From positions 2,104,501 through 2,168,500 of the forward strand of contig NZ_CP152412.1 in the NCBI RefSeq assembly GCF_038957035.1: a stretch of 64,000 nt of DNA, read 5' to 3'. A program made the position numbers and the translations under genes. The notes under the pieces were generated by a model. It saw only the letters and a list, made by a program, of their open reading frames with translations. It did not search any database and was not told the DNA's origin. Shown piece after piece: positions 32,573 through 44,610 of the stretch; position 1 is the stretch's first letter; each line of letters begins with the position of its first letter. Origin of the DNA: Bradyrhizobium sp. B097 (GTDB lineage Bacteria > Pseudomonadota > Alphaproteobacteria > Rhizobiales > Xanthobacteraceae).

Positions 32573-32719
32573 CCTGCATACACCAGGGCGACAGCGGGCA
32601 ACAACGGGGGTGCCGCTGTTAGACCAATTGGGCTTCGGCAGGTTGAGGAGCCGCCGCTATGATCGGCAGGTGATTCGCGGGCAGGGGTGTCGGCGGATCG
32701 ATCACGCCCGGAGGGACCC

Positions 32720-34372
32720 ATGTGGAGTTTTCTCGAGCGTCTGTTGGATTCGTCGACGTTTTCGCCACACGGCATCTGCCTGTTGTGGGAGCCGGAGTTG
32801 ATCTGGCTGCACGTGATTTCAGACGCGATCATTGCCGCTTCGTATTTTTCGATTCCGTTTGCGCTGGCGATCCTCGTCTCCAAGCGCCGCGACTTCCAGT
32901 TCGGCTGGATGGCCTGGCCGTTCGCCGCGTTCATCCTCGCCTGCGGCCTCACCCATGTGTTCTCGATCTACACGCTGTGGGTGCCGATCTACGGGCTCGA
33001 AGGAATAGTCAAGGCGCTCACCGCTGTCGCCTCGATCTTCACCGCGGTGCTGCTCTGGCCGCTGATCCCGAAAATCCTGGCGATCCCGACCGAGGCGCAG
33101 CTGCGCGAGGCCCATGTCGCGCTCGCCGAGGAGGGCCGGCAGCGCCAGCGCTCGGAAGTCCTGCTCGAGCGTTTCCGCGAGGCCGAGGTCAATGAGAGCA
33201 AGATACGCCAGGCGCAGAAGATGGAAGCGGTCGGACAGCTCACCGGCGGCATCGCGCACGACTTCAACAACATCCTCACCGTCATCACCGGCACCATCGA
33301 CATCCTGGCCGAGGCGGTCACCCACAACCGCCAGCTCACCGAGATCACCAGTCTGATCCGCGACGCCGCCGAGCGCGGTGCATCGCTGACGCGGCATTTG
33401 CTCGCCTTCGCGCGCAAGCAGCCGCTGCAGCCGAGTGATGTCGACGTCAATGCGCTGATGATCGACACCATCGAGCTGCTGCGGCCGACCATCGGCGACC
33501 ATGTCGATATCGACTTTCGCCCGATGCCCGATCTGCCGCGCGCGCTGGTGGATTCCAACCAGCTGGTTACCGCGATCATCAATCTCGCGCTGAACGCGCG
33601 CGACGCGATGCCGAAGGGCGGCAGGCTGCGGATCGAGACCCGCACCGCCGAGCTGAAGCCATCAGACGTGCACGGCCATGACGGGCTTGCCGCCGGCGAC
33701 TATGTCGCGATTGCGCTGATCGACAACGGCCAGGGCATCGCAGAAGCCGATCTCGCCAAGGTGTTCGAGCCGTTCTTCACCACCAAGGACGTCGGCAAGG
33801 GCACCGGCCTCGGGCTTTCCATGGTCTACGGCTTCGTCAAACAGTCCAACGGCCACATCGCGCTCGATAGCGAGGTCGGCCGCGGCACGCGGGTGATGCT
33901 CTATCTGCCGCAAGCGGCGGTGCTCTCGCCGGCCGTGGCGCCCGAGCGGCGGCAGCCGGAGGTGCGCGGCGCGCAGGAGATCGTGCTCGTCGTCGAGGAC
34001 GACAGGCTGGTGCGCTCCTACGTGCTGACCCAGATCGAGAGCCTCGGCTACACGACACGCTCGGCCAACAATGGCGGCGAAGCGCTGGCCGTGCTCGACA
34101 GCGGCGCGCCGGTCGATCTGTTGTTCACCGACGTCATCATGCCCGGTGCGATGAACGGACGCGACCTCGCCACCGAGGCGCAGCAGCGGCGGCCTGGTTT
34201 GCGCGTGCTGTTCACCTCGGGCTACACCGATGACGCCATCGACCAGGACGGCAAGCTCGAGCAGGGCATCCTGTTCCTGGCCAAGCCCTACAGCCGCGCC
34301 CAGCTCGCCCGTATGCTGCGGGTCGCGCTGCGCGAGCAGGCGGCGGCGCGCGCGCAGGAGCCAGCGGAGTAG
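32720..34372 (+). CDS. Hybrid histidine kinase with ethylene-receptor-like membrane sensor
   Basis: This is a 550-residue sensor kinase. The first 120 residues carry three membrane helices resembling the plant ETR1/cyanobacterial ethylene-binding domain: Asp35, Tyr42, Ile45, Pro46, Cys75 and His79 sit at the same relative spacing as ETR1 Asp25, Tyr32, Ile35, Pro36, Cys65 and His69. A coiled-coil linker (about 125-165) joins a HisKA domain (His180 in [14 protein letters not shown]) and an HATPase domain ([28 protein letters not shown]). A receiver domain with Asp in LLFTDVIMP ends the protein. No GAF domain is present. GGAGGG supports the ATG. No response regulator gene is adjacent. Ligand identity is inferred. 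Confidence 0.9.
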
Positions 34373-34388
34373 CCACGATGCCGTAGCC

Positions 34389-34473
34389 GTAGCCCGGATG
34401 GAGCGAAGCGAAGTCCGGGAACAGTTTCACCACGGGGACGGCCCCGGATTCCGCTCCGCTCCATCCGGGCTAC
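34389..34473. repeat. Palindromic repeat (GTAGCCCGGATGGAGCG family), copy 2
   Basis: Same arms as at 7083: GTAGCCCGGATGGAGCGAAG and CTCCATCCGGGCTAC, with a different centre. Confidence 0.9.
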
Positions 34474-43167: not shown

Positions 43168-44610
43168 CTACAACTCCCGCGCATTCGAGAACGCGAACGA
43201 CGACACCCGCCGCGTGGTCTCGTCCAGGATCAGGCTGCGCGTGATCGGCGGCTCGGCGCGCTGGCTGCAGTTCTCGCGCTCGCAGAGCCGGCAGTTGACG
43301 CCGATCGGCGTGCCCTCGACCTTCTCCAGATCCATGCCTGTCGCATAGACGAGCTTGGCCGCATGACGGATCTCGCAGCCGAGCCCGATCGCAAAGCGCG
43401 GCTGCGGCTGCGGATAGGGCGCCACCGGCCGCCGCACCGTCTGCGCGATCGAGAAGTAGCGCGTGCCGTCCGGCAGCTCGATCACCTGACTCAACAGGCG
43501 GTCGGGCATGTCGAAGGTCGAATGCACGTTCCAGAGCGGGCAGGTGCCGCCGAATTTGGAGAACGGGAAGGTGCCGGAGGAAAACCGCTTGGACACGTTG
43601 CCGGCATTGTCGACCCGCAGCAGGAAGAACGGCACGCCGCGCGCGTTCGGCCGTTGCAGCGTGGTGAGGCGGTGGCAGACCTGCTCGAAGCCGGCATTGA
43701 AGCGCTGCGCCAGCACGTGGACGTCGTAGCTCAAGGCCTCGGCCGCCGAATGAAATGCCTGATAGGGCATCATCGCGGCGGCCGCGAAATAATTGGCGAG
43801 CGTGATGCGGTACAGCCGGCGCGCGGTGTCGTCGAGCGGACCGGCGCGGCTGACGATCGCGTCGATCGCGGCACCGCATTCGACAAAGCCGATCTGCAGC
43901 GCGAGCTGGAAGCTGCGACCGGCACTGTCGACCAGTTCGGAGATCAAGAGCTGACGGCGATGGCGGTCGAAACGGCGCAGCGTCTCGCGCATCACGTCGA
44001 CCGGCATGACGCGGGTGACGATTGAATGTTTTTCGCGCAGCCGCGTGGCGAGTGCCGTGAACAGGCCTTCGGTCGGCACGTTGAGCTCGTCGCGCAGATT
44101 CTCCGCCGCGGTCTCGAGCTCCGGAAAATAGTTGCGGTTGGCCTCGATCAGGTCGCGCACCCGCTCGATCGGGTTGGCGTCGAACTGCGAGCCCTCGCGA
44201 TCGGCCATCTGCGCCGCCACCAGCGTCTCGCCGCGGCGCGCCTCGGTATAGGCGGCGTAGAGCCGCTGCAACGCATGCGTCACGCCGGGGCACAGCTCGG
44301 CGAGATCGCGCAGTTCCTGCTTCGGCAGGTCGATCTGGCGGAACAGGGGATCGGAGAAGATCTCGTTGAGTTCCGCGAAGAAGCGGTCCTCGTCGGCGGT
44401 GGCGAGGTCGCGCAAATCGAGGTCGTAAGTCTCGGCCAGCCGCAGCAGGATCTGCGCCGTCACCGGGCGCTGGTTGCGCTCGATCAGGTTGATGTAGGAA
44501 GGCGAGATGCCGAGCCCCTCGGCGATCTGGGTCTGCGACAGCCCCAATTGCTGGCGGATCCGCCGAAAGCGCGGACCGACGAACAGCTTCTTTCCGGACT
44601 CGCCCGGCAT
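43168..44610 (-). CDS. ScfR-type short-chain fatty acyl-CoA responsive XRE regulator
   Basis: This is a 480-residue regulator of the RamB/PrpR/ScfR group. The N-terminal XRE helix-turn-helix (residues 12-65) contains LSQTQIAEGLGISPSYINLIE. A central helical part precedes an IrrE-like/DUF2083 region around residues 180-300, and the C-terminal part carries CRLCERENCSQRAEPP, a Cys cluster seen in this group and possibly metal-binding. Members sense acyl-CoA and control propionate, acetate or ethylmalonyl-CoA pathways. Two TTTGTAAA-type sites lie just upstream of its own start, suggesting autoregulation. No metabolic target is nearby. Confidence 0.88.
   Translation of the reverse strand: MPGESGKKLFVGPRFRRIRQQLGLSQTQIAEGLGISPSYINLIERNQRPVTAQILLRLAETYDLDLRDLATADEDRFFAELNEIFSDPLFRQIDLPKQELRDLAELCPGVTHALQRLYAAYTEARRGETLVAAQMADREGSQFDANPIERVRDLIEANRNYFPELETAAENLRDELNVPTEGLFTALATRLREKHSIVTRVMPVDVMRETLRRFDRHRRQLLISELVDSAGRSFQLALQIGFVECGAAIDAIVSRAGPLDDTARRLYRITLANYFAAAAMMPYQAFHSAAEALSYDVHVLAQRFNAGFEQVCHRLTTLQRPNARGVPFFLLRVDNAGNVSKRFSSGTFPFSKFGGTCPLWNVHSTFDMPDRLLSQVIELPDGTRYFSIAQTVRRPVAPYPQPQPRFAIGLGCEIRHAAKLVYATGMDLEKVEGTPIGVNCRLCERENCSQRAEPPITRSLILDETTRRVSSFAFSNAREL

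Follow-up and report, generated by a model that had tools for sequence, protein, structure and literature searches.

A probable ethylene receptor of the bacterial kind, joined to a hybrid histidine kinase, in Bradyrhizobium sp. B097

The residues that plant ETR1 needs for ethylene binding are taken here to be D25, Y32, I35, P36, I62, C65 and H69, and the conserved lysine of its suggested salt bridge is presumably Lys91. Seven is the number of residues described as required for ethylene binding in ETR1 (PMC11819568), and a review assigns Cu(I) coordination to Cys65 and His69 of ETR1 helix 2 and mentions an AlphaFold model suggesting that the conserved Asp forms a salt bridge with the conserved Lys (PMC13012798). 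SynEtr1 (slr1212) of Synechocystis, compared here by description only, is likewise a bacterial histidine kinase with an ethylene-binding domain (EBD), with phosphorelay signalling (PMC11819568) and a cyanobacteriochrome between EBD and kinase (PMC6682694). The closest proven relative that we found for the protein described below is AzoEtr1 of Azospirillum brasilense, reported as a 525-aa protein encoded downstream of a release factor 3 gene; AzoEtr1(1-130) expressed in yeast showed saturable ethylene binding, and the ethylene binding of A. brasilense cells was largely lost in AzoEtr1 disruptants (PMC11819568). The preliminary description of the present locus held EBDs to be known from plants and some cyanobacteria and predicted in other bacteria; since AzoEtr1 binds ethylene (PMC11819568), receptors in plant-associated proteobacteria are no longer merely predicted.

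The window analysed, a 64,000-nucleotide stretch of the Bradyrhizobium sp. B097 genome, contains a 550-aa open reading frame (32720..34372, + strand) encoding a hybrid histidine kinase with the Pfam order EBD-HisKA-HATPase-REC. The start at 32720 is supported by a Shine-Dalgarno-like GGAGGG 5' of the ATG (32710..32715, +) and by start codons kept in orthologues: read by eye, the hexamer recurs in 17 of 20 orthologues, with GGAGCG in the other three, and the start codon place holds ATG in 17, GTG in two and ATA in one. Residues 26-122 (32795..33085) form an ETR1_N ethylene-binding-type domain scoring 128.1 bits (E 1.6e-37, cut-off 27), and the same search of 14 control genomes returned no match, so the assignment is not a chance one. 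A linker (residues 123-171, 33086..33232) leads to the HisKA dimerization domain, DHp (172-234, 33233..33421), with His180 as the phospho-acceptor by motif, followed by HATPase_c (278-399, 33551..33916) and a Response_reg receiver (422-533, 33983..34318) with Asp471 as the phospho-acceptor by motif, all on the + strand. Neither PAS nor GAF was matched by Pfam anywhere in the 550-aa protein, in agreement with the earlier proposal of a sensor joined directly to HisKA, HATPase and receiver without GAF. The kinase and receiver half resembles hybrid kinases of the PRK13557 and CckA types, from which the protein differs in having an EBD as sensor: NF010076 (PRK13557) matched residues 151-538 at 393.8 bits, under its curated cut-off of 631, and the CckA structure 5idj and the ETR1 ATPase domain 4pl9 matched at 163.5 and 33 bits, respectively. 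Sequence comparison with solved structures gave no match to the EBD at E<=1.

D35, Y42, I45, P46, C75 and H79, previously listed as matching the ETR1 set at a +10 offset, were found at these positions by residue check and alignment, and I72 (ETR1 I62), absent from that list, completes the set of seven; the offset holds for all seven in an alignment with ETR1. Cys75 (codon 32942..32944, +; C75 also in AzoEtr1) and His79 (32954..32956, +) fall at the ETR1 copper ligands C65 and H69, as the preliminary description had asked of such an alignment, and Asp35 (32822..32824, +) corresponds to ETR1 D25 and AzoEtr1 D35. Lys98 (33011..33013, +), the possible salt-bridge partner of the Asp, is matched to K91 of ETR1 at +7, the loop before helix 3 being three residues shorter. 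All eight residues were invariant in an alignment of eight sequences, namely the window protein, AzoEtr1, five Bradyrhizobium relatives and ETR1. The seven residues and the Lys are thus common to the window protein and plant ETR1, whose aligned N-terminal parts are 35% identical.

An AlphaFold2 model of the kinase (48 sequences; mean pLDDT 74.4, pTM 0.41) has helices at 26-55, 62-87 and 91-120, bearing out the three-helix segment proposed earlier, followed by a single helix at 125-199 that contains the linker and runs into the phospho-acceptor helix. On this model the sensor appears to be coupled straight to the kinase; the helix is unbroken at the point where a GAF domain separates sensor from kinase in plant receptors. 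The top Foldseek matches listed were kinase-side structures. AlphaFold and ab initio models of the ETR1 membrane part are reported to conflict, neither fully fitting EPR data (PMC13012798), and for this reason the window model is no evidence of a copper site. The window protein has an N-terminal three-helix domain of the ETR1_N family (helices from the predicted model) with the seven residues in place.

AzoEtr1 was taken to be the 525-aa frame at L111:5001-6578 on a plasmid of A. brasilense Sp7, assigned by its length and neighbours (by eye, a GTPase-like frame upstream and an overlapping receiver-like frame downstream) and not by locus tag. Its first 152 residues align with those of the window protein at 51% identity and without gaps, D35 and C75 carrying the same numbers in each, and both proteins are histidine kinases of plant-associated alphaproteobacteria. 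The kinase parts are only 27% identical, and AzoEtr1 has the layout EBD-PAS-HK without a receiver, whereas the window kinase has a receiver and no PAS. The AzoEtr1 gene is also directly followed by a response regulator gene (PMC11819568), unlike the window gene, which consequently does not form a pair of the AzoEtr1 type (PAS kinase with adjacent single-domain regulator). In the titles and abstract openings that made up our literature search no EBD kinase was reported from Bradyrhizobium, although the survey in a study of the Synechocystis receptor (PMC4972284) may mention one.

Of 265 Bradyrhizobium genomes, 26, B097 among them, matched the first 166 residues at 79% identity or above, the next listed match being at 67%. 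Among the orthologous loci fetched, mltB adjoins the gene in 20/20 and an M48 peptidase gene in 17/20. The seven residues and the Lys are kept in all 21 copies (20 orthologues plus the window), as are the kinase and receiver motifs with small variations, and dN/dS across these copies is 0.17 overall, lowest in the EBD (0.10) and rising through DHp (0.12), the catalytic ATPase domain (0.14) and the receiver (0.15) to 0.58 in the linker before the receiver. The seven residues were likewise kept in 60/60 Bradyrhizobium loci picked from the strongest listed matches; in a redundant collection of 442 EBD sequences, all eight residues were present in 425 and 17 deviated.

ETR1_N matches were found in 181 of 265 Bradyrhizobium genomes, in 20 of 289 genomes across the class (own genome included) and in 29 of 398 across the phylum (own genome and seven other Bradyrhizobium included); the 9.25-Mb B097 genome has one. 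An EBD match at 41.8% identity was also seen on a plasmid of Rhizobium sp. 32-5/1, an isolate from a Vicia cracca nodule. By E-value alone, 147 of the 181 Bradyrhizobium genomes carry an intact-type EBD and 34 have weak matches only. B097 carries nodA (E 1.7e-97), in keeping with its description as a probable legume symbiont. Counting as nodA-positive the 139 genomes with a strong match, and as negative 24 with matches at E about 1e-6 to 1e-3, intact-type EBDs occurred in 84/139 positive and 63/126 negative genomes (p 0.11), nodA in 98/181 genomes with any EBD and in 41/84 without (p 0.43), and the window class in 16/139 and 10/126 (p 0.41), kinship being ignored in all three comparisons. The nodA match exceeded the Pfam cut-off in 160 of the 163 matched genomes and most of the 24 weak ones thus pass; with all 163 counted as positive, p was 0.22 (any EBD), 0.26 (intact-type) and 0.095 (window class). 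The association with nodA was accordingly rejected as evidence of a role in symbiosis, no p value being significant and that of the window class coming nearest, and any role of the EBD gene in symbiosis is hypothetical. The suggestion that ethylene would be a meaningful host signal drew no clear support from distribution (p 0.11 for the intact type). ACC deaminase, matched in B097, was discarded as a marker, being too common to be informative (242/265 genomes at E<=0.001, 232 over cut-off).

The weak matches define a sister family, class R, surveyed in 30 of those 34 genomes at one locus apiece, that of the stronger match where there were two. At 29 of the 30 loci (L216, L217, L222-L248) Y42 is replaced by Phe, P46 by Ala and H79 by Arg, with D35 and K98 unchanged throughout and C75 in all but one; the remaining locus (L249) holds a broken copy in which I72, C75, H79 and K98 survive. 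The three replacements were invariant in 28 aligned class R sequences, and the linker had the window's length in all 28 that could be measured. A kinase tree with 11 class R sequences placed them as sister to L058 and the window's group (node support 0.95), on a stem that is short for the kinase (0.10) and long for the EBD (0.61). Mean EBD identity was 75% within class R and 43% between it and the window, against 89% and 72% for DHp. Twelve class R loci examined more widely had no neighbour family common to more than four. From sequence, we read class R as a sensor that has given up ethylene and may, as a derivative of the EBD, detect another signal. Because this family of the same genus has an altered site, the ETR1_N scaffold can evidently serve other uses, and its retention of fold, linker length and kinase lends weight to the idea that the window protein, too, has another natural ligand (copper, a small olefin or gas, or a redox state), its ETR1_N fold and copper site being kept and ethylene binding incidental. 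The lack of a significant tie between EBD carriage and nodA points the same way. Against it, the full residue set is kept under purifying selection in 21/21 window-class copies, and the same set is linked with ethylene in ETR1 and recurs in AzoEtr1 (PMC11819568); we hold this explanation to be clearly improbable.

A decaying or non-functional receptor gene would be suggested by its absence from close relatives. A search by mltB confirmed 241 loci, of which the best 80 were kept; among these 80 the EBD gene was present at 17, absent at 59 and beyond the available upstream DNA at four. At 26 of the 59 loci without it, counted by eye, mltB and M48 lie within 800 bp of each other. The gene is missing, with differing break points, from three near relatives whose mltB is 93-95% identical, and two of them retain pieces: about 32639-34461 is missing in B. 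altum, a piece matching 32762-32844 remains in sp. CER78, and in B. uaiense sequence is retained to about 32757, just past the start. We read the gene as a unit of its own that has been lost on more than one occasion, though the B. altum case by itself could be an ancestral absence. Broken frames in EBD genes at three other loci (L082, L083 and L084) are also what decay would produce. The open frame of the window gene, its low overall dN/dS and the catalytic motifs kept in 21 copies speak against decay here, which we consider a negligible prospect. Domain search, alignment and model together uphold the original claim of an ethylene-receptor-type sensor fused directly to HisKA-HATPase-REC. Judged by sequence, the protein has an ETR1_N domain in which all seven residues and the Lys are in place, followed by intact kinase motifs and an intact receiver; it looks like a further member of a known receptor kind, and is very probably a bacterial-type membrane ethylene receptor.

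The gene is flanked by mltB (SLT_2) upstream, divergently oriented, and by the M48 peptidase gene downstream. A ScfR-type short-chain acyl-CoA regulator with an IrrE-like domain and HTH lies farther along the window (43171-44610, - strand). As described before, no response regulator is adjacent: apart from the kinase's own, no receiver was found in the 64-kb window, the nearest match lying about 42 kb away (C1:2095124), nor, with a home-made profile, in the 10-15 kb covered at each of the 20 orthologous loci. This profile recovered the regulators beside L045, L055, L072 and L089, its build set including the receivers of L045, L072 and the window. The neighbourhood was hence rejected as a source of the output partner, mltB and M48 not being signalling genes and all 20 loci lacking a further receiver. 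The genome has 94 receiver matches (92 over cut-off), one ChpT-type match and four Hpt matches, of which two lie in small frames and two in CheA-sized ones (911 and 930 aa). Copper P-type ATPases are matched three times over cut-off. In the mechanism that we propose, the dimer would bind Cu(I) through Cys75 and His79 and ethylene would bind at the copper; the change would travel along the coiled coil and alter autophosphorylation of His180, whose phosphate would pass to Asp471 of the kinase's own receiver and from there, via a separate HPt protein, to an unlinked response regulator. Ethylene from the host and ethylene from the soil are both candidate ligands, and the data favour neither.

Other EBD kinases of the genus differ in layout. 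Class C (L045, L055, L056; EBD-PAS-HK by Pfam at L045) comes closest in arrangement to the Azospirillum pair, with a receiver-only frame and a second regulator following at L045 and L055 (LuxR-type by Pfam at L045), and offers a better entry point to an ethylene output pathway. Class D (about 650 aa) is EBD-PAS-HK-REC by Pfam at L072 and L078, and at L072 and L089 a regulator gene, which Pfam assigns to the LuxR type at L072, lies upstream. Class B, at about 530 aa, is EBD-HK-REC and adjoins a PMT gene at L047 and L059. Four loci (L085-L088, from G107, G176, G037 and G020) encode EBD-HisKA-REC without an ATPase domain (by Pfam for L085, by alignment for all four) with His and Asp motifs kept and dN/dS of 0.14; from their sequences, these proteins should not autophosphorylate by themselves and might act in phosphotransfer. 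The kinase frames at L082-L084 break early, their relatives at these loci or in their classes being intact, through either real decay or assembly error.

In the window class 63 residues separate the EBD end (P117) from the phospho-acceptor His. The main other linker lengths (+1, -13, -6 and +15 relative to the window) are each one residue off in heptad register. Among PAS-less sequences 301/310 fall in register 0 or +1, and 42/51 clusters at 80% identity in register +1, the sequences being related in both counts. Of nine distinct lengths besides the window's these four are in register +1, that of -6 with only two sequences, and the rest (-33, the ATPase-less class, -22, -4, -2 and +26) have one to four sequences each. 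Linkers of 7n and 7n+1 gave opposite light responses in the engineered LOV kinase YF1 (PMC6798134), and natural bacteriophytochrome linkers use several registers (PMC11164954). By analogy with YF1, the one-residue difference could mean that the window class is wired with opposite sign to most PAS-less EBD kinases, which we regard as rather unlikely; if true, net kinase activity would be activated by ethylene in one class and repressed by it in another of the same genus. Class R shares the window's register despite its altered ethylene site. The register analysis is weak, and the sign inversion is suggestive only.

In many legumes ethylene acts as a brake on nodulation, and widely used inoculants belong to Bradyrhizobium. 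If the window protein binds ethylene, Bradyrhizobium can read a plant hormone directly and would join Azospirillum as a plant-associated genus in which such direct reading can be tested, the absence of a significant nodA association leaving room for a wider role in soil or at the root. The genus offers a built-in comparison of intact, site-altered and ATPase-less versions, and the receptor, ordinary as a kind, is useful as a comparative system.
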